Shown here: one piece after another, positions 10,008 through 17,413 of the stretch
Layout: each line of letters opens with the position of its first letter
Numbering within the stretch: the stretch's first letter is position 1
Origin: Bacteroidales bacterium
GTDB taxonomy: Bacteria; Bacteroidota; Bacteroidia; Bacteroidales; UBA932
Assembly: GCA_017477465.1 (NCBI GenBank)
Contig: JAFUVU010000003.1
Span: 1-44,233 of the forward strand
Length of the DNA stretch: 44,233 nt
Reading direction: 5' to 3'
The notes under the pieces: model-generated
The model's input: only the letters and a program-made list of their open reading frames with translations
The model's database searches: none
What the model was told of the DNA's origin: nothing
Program-made: the position numbers and the translations under genes

Positions 10008-10043
10008 AAAACGGCTTGCAATAACATGCAGGCCGTTTTTGAT
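10008..10043 (+). terminator. Terminator after the C69 dipeptidase gene
   Basis: AAAACGGC-t-TGCA (10008-10020) pairs with TGCA-g-GCCGTTTT (10027-10039) around a 6-nt loop and is followed by TTGATTTTT. A-run on the left and T-run on the right could make it work in both directions. It insulates the phosphate operon that follows. Confidence 0.8.
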
Positions 10044-10049
10044 TTTTAA

Positions 10050-10105
10050 AAAACTCTACAAAAACCCAGCAATCGGCCTGTGGTGTTTGTAGAGTTTTAA
10101 ACTCT
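10050..10105. promoter_or_regulatory. Inverted-repeat operator array of the phosphate operon
   Basis: Three AAACTCT sites. AAAACTCTACAAA (10050-10062) has its exact reverse complement TTTGTAGAGTTTT at 10086-10098. The right arm then forms the start of a 15-bp palindrome, AGAGTTTTAAACTCT (10091-10105). The array covers the -33 box and the spacer of the promoter, so a bound protein would control it directly. Candidate binder: the PiT-HTH fusion encoded second in the operon (inference). Confidence 0.65.
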
Positions 10106-10117
10106 TTACTATATTTG
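10086..10117 (+). promoter_or_regulatory. Promoter of the phosphate/pyrophosphate operon
   Basis: -33 TTTG at 10086-10089, a 20-bp spacer, and -7 TATATTTG at 10110-10117, an excellent match to the Bacteroidetes consensus. Transcription would start near 10123, about 19 nt before the first ATG. The palindrome fills most of the spacer. Confidence 0.75.
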
Positions 10118-10141: not shown

Positions 10142-10804
10142 ATGAAACTGTTTGAGATATTCTCTACAAAGCGTTCGAAACTGTTCGCAGAGTCAGTGGA
10201 TAAACTCCTCAACACTGTAGATACTGCGCTGATACTCTTTAAAGAGGGAGTGCGCAGCTATCTCTACAATGACCAAGTGAGCTTCTCCGAAACGCTGTCA
10301 GCCATGGCCACGGCGGAAACAGAGGCCGGCGTCCTGCGCAGGGATATTGAAAATATGCTCTATTCCCGCGGTTCGCTCATCCGCTATAGGGGAGACATCA
10401 TGCGCCTTCTGGAAAGATACGACCACATCCTCTCCATAATCTCCAACGACCTTATCCAGTTCGAGATTGAGTCCCCCAATGTTCCTGTGGCCATCAAGAA
10501 AGAGTTCGTAAAACTGTCAGAGCTGGCGACAATGGCCGCCGAAACCACAATCCCCGGTACAAAAGCCTATTTTTCCCAGCCCGACCAAGTGGCCGAAAAC
10601 ATTCATCGCGTGTACCTTTATGACAAGCAGGCAGTCAAGCTCTCGCAATCGATAAAGCGCAGCGTCTTCCACGAAATGAACCAACTCAAGCTGAGTGAAA
10701 AGTTCCACCTGCGCTACTTTGCCCTTCATATCGAAGACCTCTCCACTGCAGCTGTAAAGGTGGCTGAGCAGCTGCAGGTAATGGCCATCAAACGCAGTCT
10801 GTAG
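10142..10804 (+). CDS. DUF47 family (PhoU-like) protein
   Basis: A 220-residue all-helical cytoplasmic protein of the DUF47/TIGR00153 family, distant relatives of PhoU. It begins KLFEIFSTKRSKLFAESVDKLLNTVDTALILFKEG and contains the charged pairs TAETEAGVLRRDIENML and IMRLLERYDHILSIISNDLIQFEIE typical of the two three-helix bundles; the E/D positions bind metal in PhoU-fold proteins. DUF47 genes are very often next to PiT phosphate permease genes and are thought to control them. Here it stands directly before the PiT-like fusion (2-bp gap). It is therefore likely the phosphate-state partner of that protein. Confidence 0.9.
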   Translation: MKLFEIFSTKRSKLFAESVDKLLNTVDTALILFKEGVRSYLYNDQVSFSETLSAMATAETEAGVLRRDIENMLYSRGSLIRYRGDIMRLLERYDHILSIISNDLIQFEIESPNVPVAIKKEFVKLSELATMAAETTIPGTKAYFSQPDQVAENIHRVYLYDKQAVKLSQSIKRSVFHEMNQLKLSEKFHLRYFALHIEDLSTAAVKVAEQLQVMAIKRSL

Positions 10805-10806
10805 CA

Positions 10807-12438
10807 ATGCTGAATGAGGAAATCATACTGGTTTTGGCCTTCTGCCTGGTATGTTTGCCCATGCTCAGGTTAGAGTTCCCGGTTGTCCTCAGCCCGGTTC
10901 AAGCTTCAGGAGCCGGCGAGCGTTGGAGCGTCAAGATTCTTATCCCGCTCCTCAGCCTTGCCGGTTTCGCCTCGCCGTTTTTCCTCCCGGAAGAATATTG
11001 CAACAAGCTTTCTTATTTAATTCCGTCATCGGATATCGAGACGCTTGCGGCCATTGCCATGGGCGCCGCTGCCGCTATTCTCATAAGCTCCGTCATACAT
11101 CGCGGCCCGGGCGTCCCGTACGCTGTGCTTGGTGCCGTTTTCGGCTGTCAGCTAATGCTAAACGGCTCCATAGACTGGTCTCTGGCCATCCCGGTGGTTG
11201 TCGGCTGGCTGGTAGCACCTCTTCTGTGCTGCGGCCTTTCCGCCCTGCTCACGCGCCTTTTCCTCGCCTATAGCAGCAAAGCAGGCCGCCACCTGGCAAT
11301 ATCGGATCATAGATTGCTGGTCGGCTGCGTCTTCGGCTCCATATTCCTGATAGAGGCATTCGCCTGGAACGCAGGACAGCTTATCACCTTGTTCCCTCTG
11401 GAAATGTTGGGCGAAAGCCCCGTCCCCGCAGCCGTCGCTGTCGGCATAGTCCTCCTGCTATATGCTTTCTCGGCCAAAAATATAAGGACAAATCTTGGCA
11501 TTATTGCCGATAAGGACCTTGACATGGGCTCAGGCCATGTTTTGGCGGTGATTTGGTCGATTACCATCACATTTGCGTTGTTTTCCATTCCGCAAATACG
11601 TTTTGTGGGCTTGGTTCCCACTCCGCTTTCGGCCTGTTCACTCCTGCTGGCGGCACTTGTCGGCTGCAGCCTGGCCCGAAAGCAGTCAACATTAAGTTCC
11701 GAGGATATCCTTAAAAACACTGCGGCAATCGCCGTCGCCCCCGTCCTGGGAATTCTTATCACCTATTGCATCAGCCTGATTCTCGGAGTAGGGGCGGCGG
11801 GCTCGAGTCTTCTTCCCGTCATCATTCTGGTGGCAATTGCAGCCATTGTTGCGGGAATGTACTTATTCATCAGAGCAGGACGCCTGGAGGCCCGCCGCCA
11901 GCAGATACTCCGTTCGAGGGAAGAGCAGGTTTATTCCACGCAGAAGTCCCTCAGCGCCCTGGAAGTGAGGGTTGAAACCAACGAAAAAGACCTGCTTAAC
12001 AAACTGGAAATCAAGCGTAAAGAACTTGTGGACTTTGCAGTAGGCGTAAGCGACCAGAAAGCCTTCATGGAAACTGTGTACAGCCGCCTGGCCCAGGCGC
12101 GCGCCCTTCCGGACGGGGATGAAAAGGACGCAGCCCTTGAGGACATCCTCAGGGACCTTCGCGACCGCATGTATTTCACCCACGAAATGAACGATTTCTA
12201 CGCCCGTACGGAGGTTCTCCACAAAGACTTCAACATGCACCTGAAGCAGGCCTATCCGAATCTTACGGAAGGCGAGCGGAAACTTGCCAACCTGCTGCGC
12301 CAAGGCTTCTCTACCAAATATATTGCATCCCTTATGAACATAACGCCAAAAAGTGTCGAAATAAGCCGATACAGGCTCCGTAACAAACTGGGCCTCAGCC
12401 GTTCCGACAATCTGGTACAATTTATCAAATCCATCTAA
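10807..12438 (+). CDS. PiT-permease-like membrane protein fused to LuxR-type HTH
   Basis: 543 residues. Residues 1-355 hold about 11 membrane helices in a PiT-like order; the segment VIHRGPGVPYAVLGAVFGCQLM...SLAIPVVVGWLVAPLLCCGL resembles the middle of a PiT repeat (glycine-rich 'thalvG' turn, then the W-x-x-x-P helix). The two PiT signatures GANDxAN are gone; the corresponding places read like QASGAGERWS and FAWNAGQL. Residues 358-415 form a coiled coil, then a helical linker, and 486-543 a LuxR/GerE-type helix-turn-helix (GERKLANLLRQGFSTKYIA, ITPKSVEISRYRLRNKLGL) as in Bacteroidetes one-component regulators. It is probably a phosphate-sensing membrane transcription factor rather than a transporter. 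The fold match is from residue patterns only; the HTH is clear. Confidence 0.7.
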   Translation: MLNEEIILVLAFCLVCLPMLRLEFPVVLSPVQASGAGERWSVKILIPLLSLAGFASPFFLPEEYCNKLSYLIPSSDIETLAAIAMGAAAAILISSVIHRGPGVPYAVLGAVFGCQLMLNGSIDWSLAIPVVVGWLVAPLLCCGLSALLTRLFLAYSSKAGRHLAISDHRLLVGCVFGSIFLIEAFAWNAGQLITLFPLEMLGESPVPAAVAVGIVLLLYAFSAKNIRTNLGIIADKDLDMGSGHVLAVIWSITITFALFSIPQIRFVGLVPTPLSACSLLLAALVGCSLARKQSTLSSEDILKNTAAIAVAPVLGILITYCISLILGVGAAGSSLLPVIILVAIAAIVAGMYLFIRAGRLEARRQQILRSREEQVYSTQKSLSALEVRVETNEKDLLNKLEIKRKELVDFAVGVSDQKAFMETVYSRLAQARALPDGDEKDAALEDILRDLRDRMYFTHEMNDFYARTEVLHKDFNMHLKQAYPNLTEGERKLANLLRQGFSTKYIASLMNITPKSVEISRYRLRNKLGLSRSDNLVQFIKSI

Positions 12439-12457: not shown

Positions 12458-13828
12458 ATGCGTAAACTAATCTCTGTATTAGCACTTGCTCTGGTCGCCA
12501 TCACGGCGGCCTACGCGCAGAAGGCCCCCGCCAAGTACAATCAGTACGGCGTGGCAGTTCAGTCCGACGTTCTGGACGTTGAGGCTCAGGACGGTATTCT
12601 GGTGATGGCCTCCCCTACCACCAAGTATAAACTCTGGTTCGACGTCCGTGCACAGGCCGACGGCGCCGTCTTCTTCGGCGCCCCCGACTATGCCGACCCC
12701 ATCGGCAACGGCGTCCAGATTCGCCGCGCCCGTTTCGCTGTCAAGGGCCAGGTCGATGAAAACTGGTACGGCGAGTTCGACATGGACCTCGCAAACGGCC
12801 TGGTTGAGCTTAAGGATGCCATCATCCGTTACACCGGTCTTAGGAATTGGGAATTTCAGGTAGGTAACTTCAAGGAGAACTTCTCCATCCAGCGCAACAC
12901 CACCTCCCGTTACCTCCAGTTCATTGAGCGTCCGATGGTCTGCTCCGCTCTCACCCCGTCACGTCACCTTGGCTTCAATGTGAAGTACGCAAAAGACTGG
13001 CTCTGGGCTTCCGCTGGCATTTTCGGTCCCGAAATGGCCGGTGCCGAGGAATGGGGGTACATGGCCGACAACAACAAGGACTACGGCCGTCCCTGCGGCT
13101 ACTCCCTCACCGGGAAGTTGGTTTTCCGTCCCCTGTTCAAGTCTGAGACGGCTTCCCTGCACATCGGCGGCGCAGCTTCCTACCGCACTCCCAAGACCAG
13201 CGTAGATCCCAAGGAATACGGCATGTACCGCGCCAGCGCCCGCAACTCCACCTCCATTAACCGCAAGAAATACATGGATACCGACAATCTGGCAGGCTAC
13301 GACCACAACCTGGTATGGACGGCAGAATTGGCCGGTCACTGGAAAGGCCTCCGCTATGAAGGGGCTTTCGTAATGGACCATGTGTTCTTCAAGAAAGACG
13401 CTGTTGATCCTACTCCCAAGCAGTTCTGGGGCTGGTATGCCCAGGCGGGCTACCTCCTTTTCGGCGGCTCTCAGCGCTACGATGCAAACGGTGGCAAGTA
13501 CACCAAGATCAAACCCGGCAAGAAGTGGGGAGATGTGGAACTCTGCGCCCGTTACGAGTTCCTCAACCTGAACAACAACAATGTGTATGGCGGCTGCGCC
13601 GAAGCTTACACCGTAGGTCTCAATTACTGGGTAACCAACAACGTGAAAATGCAGCTGAACTATCAGTTCAACAACAACGACCGCTACGCCAACGGCAAGG
13701 GTAAACTCTTCATCGGCAACGATGCCGACGGCAAACCCACTAAAGACTTTGCAAAGTGCGCCACGCCTGCCGGAAAATCCGGTGTAGACTACCACATGCT
13801 TGCTCTCCGTTTCGAAATTGACTTCTAA
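12458..13828 (+). CDS. OprO/OprP-family phosphate-type porin
   Basis: A 456-residue outer-membrane beta-barrel protein. Signal peptide 1-20 (ends AAYAQ). The mature part shows alternating aromatic beta-strands: YKLWFDVRAQADGAVFFG, GNGVQIRRARFAVKGQVDENWYGEFDMDLANGLVELKDAIIRY and WEFQVGNFKENFSIQRNTTSRYLQFIERP. This is the standard N-terminal half of phosphate-selective porins O and P. It ends in the expected terminal aromatic strand (MLALRFEIDF). In the operon it would admit phosphate or polyphosphate to the periplasm. Pseudomonas OprP/OprO select Pi and PPi through an arginine ladder; selectivity here cannot be read from sequence. Confidence 0.88.
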   Translation: MRKLISVLALALVAITAAYAQKAPAKYNQYGVAVQSDVLDVEAQDGILVMASPTTKYKLWFDVRAQADGAVFFGAPDYADPIGNGVQIRRARFAVKGQVDENWYGEFDMDLANGLVELKDAIIRYTGLRNWEFQVGNFKENFSIQRNTTSRYLQFIERPMVCSALTPSRHLGFNVKYAKDWLWASAGIFGPEMAGAEEWGYMADNNKDYGRPCGYSLTGKLVFRPLFKSETASLHIGGAASYRTPKTSVDPKEYGMYRASARNSTSINRKKYMDTDNLAGYDHNLVWTAELAGHWKGLRYEGAFVMDHVFFKKDAVDPTPKQFWGWYAQAGYLLFGGSQRYDANGGKYTKIKPGKKWGDVELCARYEFLNLNNNNVYGGCAEAYTVGLNYWVTNNVKMQLNYQFNNNDRYANGKGKLFIGNDADGKPTKDFAKCATPAGKSGVDYHMLALRFEIDF

Positions 13829-13842
13829 AATTGCACAGCCTT

Positions 13843-14658
13843 ATGAAAAAGATATTATTTGCAGTTGCAACCCTGCTGGCCTTGTCGGCCTGTGTAAAGG
13901 ATGCTATGTATCCCAATCCTACGGTGTCTAATATTTCCAACACTGTGGCTTATTATGACACCGACGACGTAACAGTTACGGCTACCGTGAGTGCTTTCGT
14001 GGATATCACCAAGGTGAATCTGGTCTATAACATCGGTTCTGCCGCTGCCAAGGAAGTGGCCATGACCGCCGCCGGCAACACTTATACGGGCACCATTCCC
14101 GCCGCTGCCATGGGCACGGAAGTCAAATATTACATTGAGGCTTTCACCGATGGCGGTTCCGCTAAATCTGCCGTAGGAAGCTACAAAGTAGGCGAAGTCC
14201 CCGTCGACTATACCAAGCTCAAACTCAATGAGTTAAACGGTAACGACAAATTCATCGAAATCATCAACACCGGCTCCGATCCCGTCACGCTGCTGGGCGT
14301 GAAGGTGTTCAAGGACACCAAGGATGTATGGACCGGCCCCGCCCGTATCCTGAACCCCGGTGAATTCCTGCTTCTTTACAGCGAAGATGTAGTTGTAGAA
14401 GGCGGTGCCCAGGAAGGATACGACGCTGAACTTGTATTCGCTTCGGGTCTTTCCGCAAAGAAAGCCGTGCGTGTACAGCTTCAGGATCCAAAGGGTAACG
14501 ATGTGGACGACTTCAATCTTGTTACTGTAGCAAAGACTGCTCCGGCCTCCTACAGCCGTGTCCCGGACGGAACCGGTGCGTGGTGCTTCACTGATGCAAC
14601 CCCCGGCTCCAATAACGCTACCGACAGCAGCGACCCTGTGACAGGATTTGCAGAATAA
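13843..14658 (+). CDS. Lipoprotein with lamin-tail (LTD) domain
   Basis: 271 residues from ATG 13843 (MKKILFAVATLLALSAC), with Cys17 as the lipid anchor; a TTG 12 bp upstream is less likely. Residues 25-120 form an Ig-like beta-domain (VTVTATVSAFVDITKVNLVYNIG; YYIEAFTDGGSAKS). Residues 128-270 form a lamin-tail domain: LKLNELNGNDKFIEIINTGSDPV, ARILNPGEFLLLYSED, and the closing SYSRVPDGTGAWCFTDATPGSNN. Secreted LTDs often tether proteins or sit beside nucleases and phosphoesterases. Its place between the porin and cytoplasmic phosphate enzymes suggests an outer-membrane accessory to the porin. Exact role unknown. Confidence 0.82.
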   Translation: MKKILFAVATLLALSACVKDAMYPNPTVSNISNTVAYYDTDDVTVTATVSAFVDITKVNLVYNIGSAAAKEVAMTAAGNTYTGTIPAAAMGTEVKYYIEAFTDGGSAKSAVGSYKVGEVPVDYTKLKLNELNGNDKFIEIINTGSDPVTLLGVKVFKDTKDVWTGPARILNPGEFLLLYSEDVVVEGGAQEGYDAELVFASGLSAKKAVRVQLQDPKGNDVDDFNLVTVAKTAPASYSRVPDGTGAWCFTDATPGSNNATDSSDPVTGFAE

Positions 14659-14679
14659 TAACCTAAAACCAAGTAATTT

Positions 14680-15318
14680 ATGGCAGAACTTAAAATTGGC
14701 GAACAGTCAAAGCCCCGCTTTGAATTCCGCAGCTTCGGACAAAATTTTGACGCCGCAGCAAAACGCATGGCGCGCCTCTCCGTTCCCGTTCCCGAGAAGG
14801 TATGGGAGCGCCAGAGCGACGAGATTTACATCATCAGCGCCAAGAATGATATCAACAATACCAAGATCCGTAACGGCAAGATGGACATCAAAACCTATGT
14901 CCAGACCGTGGATGGCTTCGAGCAGTGGAATCCCCTGATGAAGGGTGAATTCCCCATCTCCAGGGAAGTGCTTGAAAAAGAGGTGTTTCCGGCTTTCATG
15001 GTAGAGATGCCCAAGCTCACCAAGGACACTTACACATTTGAAGAGTTCATCGACATGGTGAAGGCCAACAAGGACCTTGCCGCCGTCCGCGTACACAAAC
15101 AGCGCTTCGGTTACATGGTCAACGATACCATCTGCGAAGTGGGCAACGTCCTCATCAACGGTGCCAAAGTCGTCACCATCAATTCCGAATCCACAGAGAT
15201 CGAAGACATCAAGAAGACAGTTGCCGACTGCGGCCTCGAAGGCGTGGAGAACATCAACTACCTGCAGGCCATCAAGCGCGTTATCGGCATGAGTGACAAA
15301 CCTTTAGCAAACGAGTAA
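14680..15318 (+). CDS. Possible CYTH-like triphosphate-tunnel protein
   Basis: A 212-residue cytoplasmic protein without signal or membrane segments. The N-terminal PRFEFRSFGQNFD has the alternating E-x-R pattern of a CYTH strand. A block then reads SDEIYIISAKNDINNTKIRNGKMDIKTYVQ, followed by GFEQWNPLMKGEFPI, which resembles the 'NxKIRdGxLDIK ... GLExWxPxxKaeFP' region I associate with a CYTH-like family. The C-terminal part (VRVHKQRFGYMVNDTICEVGNVLIN; TINSESTEIEDIKKTV) is strand-rich and would close a tunnel fold. It lies 3 bp before an unmistakable CYTH gene, so the operon may encode two such proteins. Family call tentative. Confidence 0.5.
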   Translation: MAELKIGEQSKPRFEFRSFGQNFDAAAKRMARLSVPVPEKVWERQSDEIYIISAKNDINNTKIRNGKMDIKTYVQTVDGFEQWNPLMKGEFPISREVLEKEVFPAFMVEMPKLTKDTYTFEEFIDMVKANKDLAAVRVHKQRFGYMVNDTICEVGNVLINGAKVVTINSESTEIEDIKKTVADCGLEGVENINYLQAIKRVIGMSDKPLANE

Positions 15319-15321
15319 ACT

Positions 15322-15798
15322 ATGGCACAGGAAATAGAGAAAAAATTCCTCGTAAAGGGTGATTTCAAGGCCGATGCCTTCAAAGCCACCCGCATCACCC
15401 AGGGTTACCTTTCAAGCGTGCCTGAGCGCACCGTCCGCATCCGCGTGAAGGGCGACAAGGGCTTCATCACCGTCAAGGGAATCGGCAACGCTTCCGGCGC
15501 AGCCCGTTTCGAGTGGGAGAAAGAAATCCCCGTGGAAGACGTAAAAGCCCTCCTGGACCTTGCCGAACCCGGCGTGATTGACAAGACCCGCTACCTTGTA
15601 AAGAACACCGACGGCGTGCACACCTGGGAAGTGGACGAATTCTACGGCGACAACGACGGCCTTACAGTGGCCGAAGTTGAACTTGCCGACGAGAACGAAC
15701 CCTTCGACAAACCCGCATGGCTGGGAGAAGAAGTAACCGGCGACCCCAAGTACTTCAACTCCATGCTTATGAAGAACCCTTACAAGAACTGGAAGTAA
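15322..15798 (+). CDS. CYTH domain protein (triphosphate tunnel enzyme)
   Basis: 158 residues forming a single CYTH domain. The defining ExExK motif is at residues 4-8 (EIEKK), followed by QGYLSSVPERTVRIRVKGDKGFITVKG with the basic residues that line the tunnel, FEWEKEIPVEDVKALL, KTRYLV, HTWEVDEFYGDNDGLTVAEVEL and EEVTGDPKYFNSML. The acidic pairs (WEVDEF, VAEVEL) bind the divalent metal. Short bacterial enzymes of this type hydrolyse inorganic triphosphate or related polyphosphates; a few are adenylate cyclases or thiamine triphosphatases. In this operon, tripolyphosphate hydrolysis to PPi and Pi is the natural guess, feeding the pyrophosphatase encoded three genes later. Confidence 0.9.
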   Translation: MAQEIEKKFLVKGDFKADAFKATRITQGYLSSVPERTVRIRVKGDKGFITVKGIGNASGAARFEWEKEIPVEDVKALLDLAEPGVIDKTRYLVKNTDGVHTWEVDEFYGDNDGLTVAEVELADENEPFDKPAWLGEEVTGDPKYFNSMLMKNPYKNWK

Positions 15799-15805
15799 CG
15801 ATATT

Positions 15806-17413
15806 ATGGCAACAGATACAGAAAACAAGGCGGTGCCGTTCGACCCGCTGGACATGAACAATTACAAAGTCGAGAAACTGCCTAAGATGCAGAAATCCAA
15901 GTTTGAGCAGTGGATGGCCCGCTTAGGCGCTCCGCTGGCCCTCATCGCCTTTGTCTGGATCTGTTGGTTCTGCCATATCGGCTTCATCGACAATCTGGAT
16001 ACCAGCCTGCTGGCCGCTTCTGCCCAGAAGCGGCTGGCAGCCCTGGGTCTGGATGGTTTCATAAGGGCCAATTACGCAATGCTGGCCATCTTCGTGGCCA
16101 GTCTTATACTGTGGATGACGGAGGCCCTGCCGAATTACCTCACCTCCCTTATCCTCATGCTTGGCGTGGTCCTTTTCAACGTCACCACGCAAAAAGAAGC
16201 GCTTGCCCAGCTCGGCCATCCCGTGATGTGGCTGAATATCCTCAGTTTCGTGCTGGCCTCGATGCTGGTGAAGACGCGCTTTGCAAAACGCCTGGCGCTG
16301 GCGTTTGTCATTAAATTCGGCAAGAGCGCCAAGGGCGTGCTCTGGAGTTTCCTCCTCATCAACCTTGTGCTCAGCGCTTTCATATCGGCAACAACCGTGA
16401 AGGCTACCATTATGCTGCCCATCTTCATGGTTATCTGCGCCATCTATGGAGCGTCCAACGGAAACCGCAACAACTTTGGCCGTAACCTAGTGATTCAGAA
16501 TTTGTTCCAGGTGAATATCGGCGCAAATGCCTTCTACACAGGCAGCGGTGCGCACCTGCTTGCCATTTCGCTTATCGCCGGCTTCGTGGGCTCATGCGAC
16601 TTCGGCTACAAAGAGTGGCTCATCGCTGTGGGCCCCATGAGCGTAATTATCCTTGTGGTGGGCCTCCTGCTGGGCATGTACGTGTTCTTCCCCATGAAGA
16701 AAGAAGAGCAGGTGCCTCAGATTGAAGGCGGTATCGACCGTCTTAAAGGCGAGCTGGCCACCATGGGCAAAATGTCGGCCGAAGAGTGGAAGGCGGTCAT
16801 CATCTTCCTCATCGTCCTCTTCCTGTGGGTCACGAAAGGCACCTTCCACAACATCGACGAAACCATCGTCGCCCTTATCGGTGCCATCCTGGCCCTTCTG
16901 CCCGGCATCGGCGTAGTAAAGTGGAACGACGTTGACATCCCCTGGCACCTGATGCTTTTCAGCGCCGGCGCGTACGTTCTTGGCAGCGGCCTCAACGCCA
17001 CCGACCTTCCCAACACCATGGTGAACGCCGCTTTTGACTCCATGGGCATCACTTCCAGCACCCCCTTCTGGGTGCTCTACGTGATTCTCACCTTCCTGAT
17101 GATGTACTCCGGCCTTGTGTTCCAGTCGAAGACCATCCGCACAATGGTTTTCGTGCCGATAGCCCTTGGCGTGGAGAAGCGCTTCGACTTCCCGCCCATG
17201 TCGCTGGCGCTGCCTGTGAGCATGCTCATCGAGCACTGCTATGTGCTCCCCTTCAACAGCAAACCCGCGGCCCTGCTGTACACCACCAACCAGTACAGCA
17301 TGACGGACGCATTCAAATACGGAATCACCATGATGACCTTCTCCTGGCTGCTGATTTTGCTGTTCGGGCAGACGGTTTTGAAGTGGCTGGGTATCACTCC
17401 CGGACTTTTTTAG
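15806..17413 (+). CDS. SLC13/DASS-family Na+-coupled anion transporter
   Basis: A 535-residue inner-membrane protein. After a 35-residue cytoplasmic head come about 12-13 hydrophobic segments. Characteristic parts are MTEALPNYLTSLILMLGVVLF, HPVMWLNILSFVLASMLVKTRFAKRLALAFV and FISATTVKATIMLPIFMVICAIYG, plus a second half with ALLPGIGVVKWNDVDIPWHLMLFSAGAYVLGSGL. The usual DASS substrate motif SNT is replaced (ISATTVKAT; QVNIGANAFYTGSGAHL), so the anion is unclear: dicarboxylate, sulfate, phosphate or a phospho-compound are all possible. Being in a phosphate operon next to a cation-pumping pyrophosphatase, it may be the actual phosphate importer that replaces the degenerate PiT domain (inference). 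Confidence 0.82.
   Translation: MATDTENKAVPFDPLDMNNYKVEKLPKMQKSKFEQWMARLGAPLALIAFVWICWFCHIGFIDNLDTSLLAASAQKRLAALGLDGFIRANYAMLAIFVASLILWMTEALPNYLTSLILMLGVVLFNVTTQKEALAQLGHPVMWLNILSFVLASMLVKTRFAKRLALAFVIKFGKSAKGVLWSFLLINLVLSAFISATTVKATIMLPIFMVICAIYGASNGNRNNFGRNLVIQNLFQVNIGANAFYTGSGAHLLAISLIAGFVGSCDFGYKEWLIAVGPMSVIILVVGLLLGMYVFFPMKKEEQVPQIEGGIDRLKGELATMGKMSAEEWKAVIIFLIVLFLWVTKGTFHNIDETIVALIGAILALLPGIGVVKWNDVDIPWHLMLFSAGAYVLGSGLNATDLPNTMVNAAFDSMGITSSTPFWVLYVILTFLMMYSGLVFQSKTIRTMVFVPIALGVEKRFDFPPMSLALPVSMLIEHCYVLPFNSKPAALLYTTNQYSMTDAFKYGITMMTFSWLLILLFGQTVLKWLGITPGLF

Follow-up and report, generated by a model that had tools for sequence, protein, structure and literature searches.

The stretch analyzed here (the window) comprises 44,233 nucleotides of contig JAFUVU010000003.1 from a Bacteroidales assembly and contains three adjacent genes encoding a DUF47 protein, a membrane protein that ends in a LuxR-type helix-turn-helix (HTH), and an outer-membrane porin (Table 1). 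Our subject is the middle gene, which starts 2 bases past the stop codon of the DUF47 gene. A sequence-only reading of the window, made by a model without database searches, had taken it for a PiT phosphate permease that has become a phosphate-sensing transcription factor acting from the membrane. The 543-residue open reading frame on which that proposal was built is genuine and uninterrupted by stops. A hydropathy count gives 11 membrane segments, in agreement with the approximate number proposed, the last ending at residue 353 and being followed by a long charged tail; the other full-length fusions counted in this way have 9 to 11. The C-terminal HTH, previously placed at residues 486–543, was recovered by the GerE model at residues 485–537 as the sole above-cut-off Pfam match in the protein, and the predicted DUF47 and porin neighbors are likewise present. 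The AlphaFold2 model of the protein, obtained with its relatives L031 and L032, had a mean predicted local distance difference test score of 49.9 and stayed below 50 across most of the membrane part; this was too poor to use, and the comparison with TmPiT rests on sequence.

Table 1. Features of the operon and of the fusion gene in the window
Feature	Coordinates	Strand	Basis
AAACTCTACAA, candidate operator half-site 1	10051..10061	+	motif count in window
AAACTCTACAA, candidate operator half-site 2, overlaps promoter TTTG	10087..10097	-	motif count; overlap read from sequence
Bacteroidota-type promoter (presumed): TTTG 10086-10089, TATATTTG 10110-10117	10086..10117	+	TAnnTTTG located, TTTG read
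DUF47 (PhoU_div) protein, 220 aa, first operon gene	10142..10804	+	PF01865 E 6e-5, 22.9 bits, just under 24.4-bit cut-off
Fusion of PiT-derived membrane domain, helical linker and LuxR HTH	10807..12438	+	open reading frame, Pfam, alignment, profiles
Degenerate PiT domain, residues 1-330; E23, N188 and D239 at conserved positions	10807..11796	+	profile comparison, conservation
AWNAGQL, residues 186-192, remnant of second PiT signature; N188 in 57/57	11362..11382	+	alignment
Last membrane segment, residues 335-353, between PiT core and linker	11809..11865	+	hydropathy
Helical linker, probably coiled-coil, residues 355-480	11869..12246	+	AlphaFold secondary structure (low confidence in part)
LuxR/GerE HTH, residues 485-537	12259..12417	+	Pfam E 1.1e-7; GerE in 22/22 aligned members
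Porin_O_P outer-membrane protein, third operon gene	12458..13828	+	Pfam E 2.5e-39

Ancestry and degeneration of the membrane part

The Pfam PHO4 model has no match in the window protein itself, and its likeness to PiT was therefore established via relatives. With the window protein as the query, a search of 199 genomes of the same family gave 14 further full-length relatives without the PiT signatures (L002–L015) and five lower-scoring ones (L016–L020) that are intact PiT carriers with GANDAAN and GANNIAN and end in the same linker and LuxR module. Two close relatives, L031 and L032, come from named Bacteroidales metagenome-assembled genomes, one of them from goat omasum. All 22 members could be aligned end to end, the intact fusions having one membrane segment at the same place as the last one of the window protein. 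Scanned singly, 13 of the 22 match PHO4 at E ≤ 0.01; as the five intact ones exceed the cut-off of the model, eight of the matching members must be degenerate.

Profile comparisons were confined to the membrane parts by removing the C-terminal 185 residues. The 17 degenerate membrane parts matched six PiTs without the LuxR module with a probability of 98.6 (E 6.6e-16), collinearly over positions 7–322 and 5–334, and the profile of the five intact fusions with a probability of 99.0. Matches with 30 canonical PiTs of another subtype were weak, the probability being 46.3 for all 17, 86.5 for five mid-distance members (L011–L015), and 2.0 for the 12 members nearest the window. Taken by itself, the membrane part of the window protein reached 98.9 with the mid-distance members, and the controls gave at most 0.3 for reversed alignments and 0.8 for an unrelated carrier (DASS). 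The graded scores indicate that the link to PiT runs stepwise through the relatives, and the PiT part of the intact fusion L018 matches TmPiT (6l85) with E 3.2e-28. These comparisons identify the membrane part as a PiT phosphate permease in degenerate form, in agreement with the ancestry proposed earlier.

Across 398 genomes of the family, we found 64 full-length places in 63 genomes, 63 of them without an in-frame stop; the exceptions are an in-frame TAG in G677 and a run of N in G692. After removal of two identical copies, the search for the same fusion yielded 62 distinct full-length members, the window included, plus one outside the family (L148). The signatures are kept in 5 of the 62 and lost in 57. 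At the two sites of the GANDVANA-type signature, the window protein reads LRLEFPV (residues 20–26) and AWNAGQL, neither of which is a PiT signature. The sequence-only reading was thus right about the loss and about AWNAGQL, which it had set opposite GANNIAN; its other replacement, ASGAGERWS (residues 33–41), was misplaced, as GANDAAN aligns with LRLEFPV. It had also named relatives that both keep intact motifs and transport phosphate as evidence against itself; relatives with intact motifs exist, the window gene being among the members without them.

The lost and retained positions form a distinct pattern. The position of the first-signature Asp is acidic in all 56 degenerate members covering it (Glu23 in the window), and the Asn residues of that signature are kept in 4 and 1 of the 56. 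In the second signature, the first Asn (N188) is invariant, the next (Asn184 of the intact form) is found in 31 of 57, and the last in none. Ser/Thr residues are kept in 28% and 4% of degenerate members at the PVST site and in 39%, 4%, and 21% at the PVSST site. Position 239, an Ala in intact forms, is acidic in all 57 (Asp in 56). For human PiT2, the accessible part of a published study lists D28, D506, E55, E575, S113, and S593 as critical for phosphate transport (PMC3126765). Equating those residues with the sites above is our own reading of the motifs; given that equation, the losses suggest that carrier chemistry is probably gone in the degenerate members. At the same time, a few polar positions are held tighter than the remaining membrane part, the mean frequency of the top residue being 0.46 in the membrane part, 0.68 in the linker (residues 400–479), and 0.84 in the HTH. 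The ratio of nonsynonymous to synonymous substitution rates (dN/dS) in 10 degenerate pairs was 0.05–0.28 for the membrane part and 0.01–0.17 for the C-terminal module, with dS close to saturation in some pairs. These pairs show purifying selection.

The distribution of the fusion was studied in samples of genomes from the family, the class, and the phylum of Bacteroidota. The phylum sample of 395 genomes contained 12 others with the same PiT subtype (E 1e-30 or better); their matches end at profile position 344–354 in 11 cases and at 416, with stops, in one, and the longer frames among those displayed carry a different C-terminal stretch. The class sample, also of 395 genomes, contained one further complete fusion, the 613-residue L148 from another family, whose signatures are intact and whose PHO4 and GerE domains, upstream DUF47, and downstream Porin_O_P are all over the Pfam cut-offs. 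It also contained L149, a PiT with DUF47 but without LuxR; the other listed matches, except the window, cover only the C-terminal module common to ordinary regulators. Six PiTs of this subtype from other families (L066, L067, L069, L070, L072, and L074) have a non-LuxR C-terminal extension of very roughly 130–150 residues. In G613 and G623, the transporter and LuxR parts were considered as two genes each; every one of the four pieces stops at a contig end, and they were therefore taken as split genes.

The operon and its upstream motif

The DUF47, fusion, and porin genes appear in one order and on one strand in 88 of 88 loci, which represent about 73 distinct genes, as second fetches are included. 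DUF47 and the porin are each found in 86 of these, and the two loci lacking the one and the two lacking the other are all at contig ends. Both genes were recognized with profiles grown from the window genes on the same 88 loci; DUF47 is over the Pfam cut-off in L019, L021, L140, L148, and L149, and the same gene and operon are found in L031 and L032. The TAG of G677 (locus L130) lies between a membrane half of 390 residues and a LuxR half of 186 residues in an otherwise intact operon and could reflect an error in sequencing, gene decay, or division into two genes. One genome, G774, has two operon copies (L120 and L123) with diverged fusion proteins; the L123 protein is identical to one from G716, and a mixed assembly is possible.

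The stretch 10050–10105, for which a binding test with the C-terminal part had been suggested, contains a conserved motif. Of 68 loci, 57 have CTCTACAA ahead of the DUF47 gene, with 97 forward copies and 3 reverse ones, at a density of 6.0 per kb compared with 0.18 per kb in genes (about 33 times); in the 120 bases before the porin, it occurred in 3 of 66 cases. For this count, 17 loci were dropped (second fetches, identical copies, and cut genes) and L136 was skipped. It supersedes one in which CTCTACAA was the commonest 8-mer upstream of DUF47, present in 48 of 62 regions against 0.6 expected under dinucleotide shuffling, the best shuffled 8-mer reaching 13 among the 10 listed of 20 shuffles; that count included L016 and L018, where DUF47 is cut at the start, and omitted some genomes. 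The same set of related loci served for both discovery and counting of the motif, and the copies are not independent events.

In the window, the CTCTACAA motif forms an inverted pair at a promoter that we take to follow the Bacteroidota-type consensus. Both occurrences of ACTCTACAA in the window belong to this pair (10051–10097), against 0.12 expected, and 1 of 100 shuffles reached two. A TAnnTTTG box was located in 32 of the 57 loci with the motif, and the spacing between the two falls into few classes. It is 55–57 bp in eight loci, namely the window, the pair L002/L100, and five clade mates; other groups have 34, 99, 20, or approximately 146 bp. Four operons of intact fusions also have the site (G192, G111, G174, and G613). 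In seven loci (L012, L014, L127, L135, L137, L138, and L140), one position of the recognition helix is Glu or Cys, and none of the seven has the site, which is a hint only, several of these loci being related; the site is likewise absent from L013, L015, L098, and L134. A GC-rich stem followed by T runs, seen by eye at 10008–10047 between a C69 peptidase gene and the operon, resembles a terminator of the upstream gene and is separate from the CTCTACAA pair.

Across 15 carrier genomes, AAACTCTACAA has 51 copies, compared with 30 for its backwards control, and 14 of the copies, spread over 13 of these genomes, lie at the operon. Off the operon, the numbers are 37 and 30, and in five genomes without the fusion, 9 and 6; as the former are not clearly above the control, we do not claim a wider regulon. 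The two-site pattern was matched in 2 of 20 genomes.

A candidate regulator and alternative explanations

We consider it moderately probable that the fusion is a membrane one-component regulator that derives from a transporter, acts together with DUF47, controls its own operon, and probably responds to phosphate. According to this model, a PiT permease with a DUF47 partner and a porin would have gained the helical linker and LuxR tail, after which the PiT core of most members, the window included, would have lost the residues shared by carriers and been kept as a sensor. The membrane core and DUF47 would jointly read the phosphate status, either as external phosphate or as phosphate flux signalled through DUF47, and the state would be relayed via the last helix and the linker to the HTH; this would bind the candidate CTCTACAA sites at the operon promoter and set the expression of all three operon genes. 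Activation would be in keeping with sites far upstream of the promoter, while repression would be possible from the second site of the window, positioned over TTTG. From the earlier picture of a transporter turned regulator, the PiT ancestry, signature loss, LuxR output, DUF47 and porin partners, and upstream motif have stood; phosphate as the signal, contact with DUF47, and putative binding of the HTH to the motif are what we infer from them, as are the sign of control, the loss of transport, and the sequence in which the changes took place.

Several observations weigh against this model. On its own, the membrane part of the window protein reaches a probability of only 41.2 with the intact fusions and 0.5 with the canonical PiTs. 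The window genome is 82.5% complete; it holds three copies of AAACTCTACAA, two at the operon and one inside a coding frame that we take to be a V-ATPase subunit, and the backwards control also occurs three times. The CTCTACAA site is lacking in 11 of the 68 loci and in the intact operon of G012 (L168), and the name Porin_O_P denotes a family and does not prove a link to phosphate. Regarding the order of events, a first membrane tree placed the degenerate set outside the PiTs and intact fusions, and a 25-row tree with a canonical PiT outgroup placed it among GANDAAN-type PiTs, at a fork that is not resolved. The intact fusions are not grouped with the degenerate ones as a single clade in these trees, in which long branches are involved, and such a clade is not rejected by the approximately unbiased test (p-AU 0.33; in a second tree 0.31, and 0.16 with L148). 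Given this topology, descent from an intact fusion is not proven.

The membrane part has also shrunk in five loci. It has seven segments in L137 and L138; in L136, whose start is cut by the contig, the end of DUF47 is joined to a two-segment stub, a linker, and LuxR, the short DUF47 piece being found by the custom profile alone and missed by Pfam. In L021 and L140, which come from different genera, DUF47 is joined straight to LuxR with zero membrane segments, and both domains are over the Pfam cut-offs. A run of N in L021 (the same gene as L139) lies inside DUF47, away from the DUF47–LuxR junction, and L140 has no such run. A 713-residue frame in L117 combining DUF47, the membrane part, and LuxR was considered as a natural triple fusion and dropped, having a run of N at the junction. 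In a tree of the LuxR module, the DUF47-fused forms must be placed at least twice on account of well-supported branches, one placement being inside a supported cluster of degenerate members; L021 and L140 are long branches, and their exact places are unsure. Fused domains usually work together, and the DUF47–LuxR fusions therefore tie DUF47 to the LuxR output more firmly than neighborhood does. As the membrane part is absent in two genomes of different genera, it may only anchor the protein, a further point against a sensing membrane core.

These reduced forms and their separate placements favor an alternative in which DUF47 is the sensor and is followed by the LuxR output, the PiT remnant being a mere anchor or docking platform, a relic shrinking under relaxed demand. 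We regard this as unlikely, as the full-length members counted retain 9 to 11 segments and a low membrane dN/dS, and the near-invariant polar residues E/D23, N188, and D239 exceed the needs of an anchor. Under the transporter-derived regulator, the same forms can be arranged as a path from transporter to regulator that would survive in one operon, consisting of working PiT–LuxR transceptors, transport-dead sensors, stubs of seven and two segments, and membrane-less DUF47–LuxR proteins, with the same porin throughout and with CTCTACAA sites shared by intact and degenerate forms but mostly not by the reduced ones. We offer this path tentatively, considering its chances slightly short of even.

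The window protein could alternatively be a transceptor that still transports phosphate or another ion while regulating. Fusions of the same layout with intact motifs exist, and the retained acidic position and partly retained Asn184 would be consistent with residual transport. Of the 15 genomes with a degenerate full-length fusion, six have another clear PiT and nine have none, matches of E 2e-5 or weaker being taken as the fusion gene itself. However, Na_Pi_cotrans (PF02690), another kind of Na/Pi carrier, is found in all 8 checked of these nine genomes and in 26 of 30 overall, the window genome included; with this carrier or another PiT present, the retired PiT would not obviously be needed for uptake. 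pstB, the sole Pst subunit searched, was over the cut-off in 1 of 30 genomes, and sub-cut-off ABC ATPases were found in all 30. The first-signature Asn residues, the last Asn of the second signature, and most Ser/Thr residues are lost, at sites that by our matching correspond to residues required for phosphate transport by PiT2, and we find continued transport improbable.

A sensor-regulator of the proposed kind for a different ligand, such as sulfate or a metal–anion complex, seems more doubtful still: L018 has a sub-threshold match to the NCBIfam sulfate permease model (68.9 bits, cut-off 400), but the constant company of PhoU-related DUF47 and a porin family named for phosphate argues otherwise. 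A decaying gene or an assembly artefact, to which the lost motifs, the TAG of G677, and the N run of G692 might point, is hardly credible, and for the window gene it is refuted as far as sequence can do so by the nearly stop-free frames, the purifying selection, and the same gene and operon in L031 and L032.

Downstream of the operon, positions 13831–17413 encode a lamin-tail-domain protein (E 3e-10), a 212-residue protein that no Pfam model matches, a CYTH-domain protein (E 1e-14), and a Na/sulfate-type symporter. Inspection by eye shows genes for the first three behind the operon of L031 and L032 as well. CYTH proteins often handle polyphosphate.

Of the 30 genomes checked, 29 had no above-cut-off pstB, and in these genomes the fusion would be a candidate for a one-component regulator responsive to phosphate. 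Its relatives, which include an intact transporter bearing this tail at one extreme and membrane-less forms at the other, may hold living intermediates of the change from carrier to sensor, a question usually argued from end points, and would make that step testable. The DUF47–LuxR fusions give direct genetic evidence of what DUF47, still described by Pfam as of unknown function, is wired to.

Comparison with known systems

We found no PiT–LuxR regulator described in the open full-text literature, a scope outside which most subscription papers fall. The nearest described systems are DadR, HcdR, and CadR of Eggerthella lenta (Coriobacteriia), which likewise have 10–12 N-terminal transmembrane helices, a linker, and a C-terminal LuxR HTH (PMC9734109), a layout that the window protein shares with its 11 segments and C-terminal HTH. 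According to the accessible text of that study, these proteins are encoded near their targets and are activators as judged by deletion, and the authors describe the layout as previously unreported and the mechanism as unclear. They belong to another phylum, however, and the same text has neither major facilitator (MFS) wording nor a link to phosphate; the likeness seen here is one of layout.

The PiT/PHO4 transporters, such as TmPiT (6l85) and human PiT2, share the homologous membrane core and a DUF47 neighbor, whereas the window protein is without the signatures and adds the last segment, the linker, and the HTH. As the defining signatures were tested for and are missing, we do not file the fusion as a PiT transporter; it is classed among the membrane one-component regulators. 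In the Pst–PhoU–PhoR system of Escherichia coli, as far as the accessible account describes it (PMC6978683), a transporter and a PhoU-type protein likewise report phosphate status to transcription, but the signal of that system passes from an ABC transporter via a histidine kinase to PhoB, whereas here the transporter-like protein itself bears the HTH. In CadC and ToxR, going by the partial accounts available, the membrane protein is the transcription factor, as proposed here; CadC, however, is anchored by one helix, whereas the window protein has the core of a polytopic transporter.
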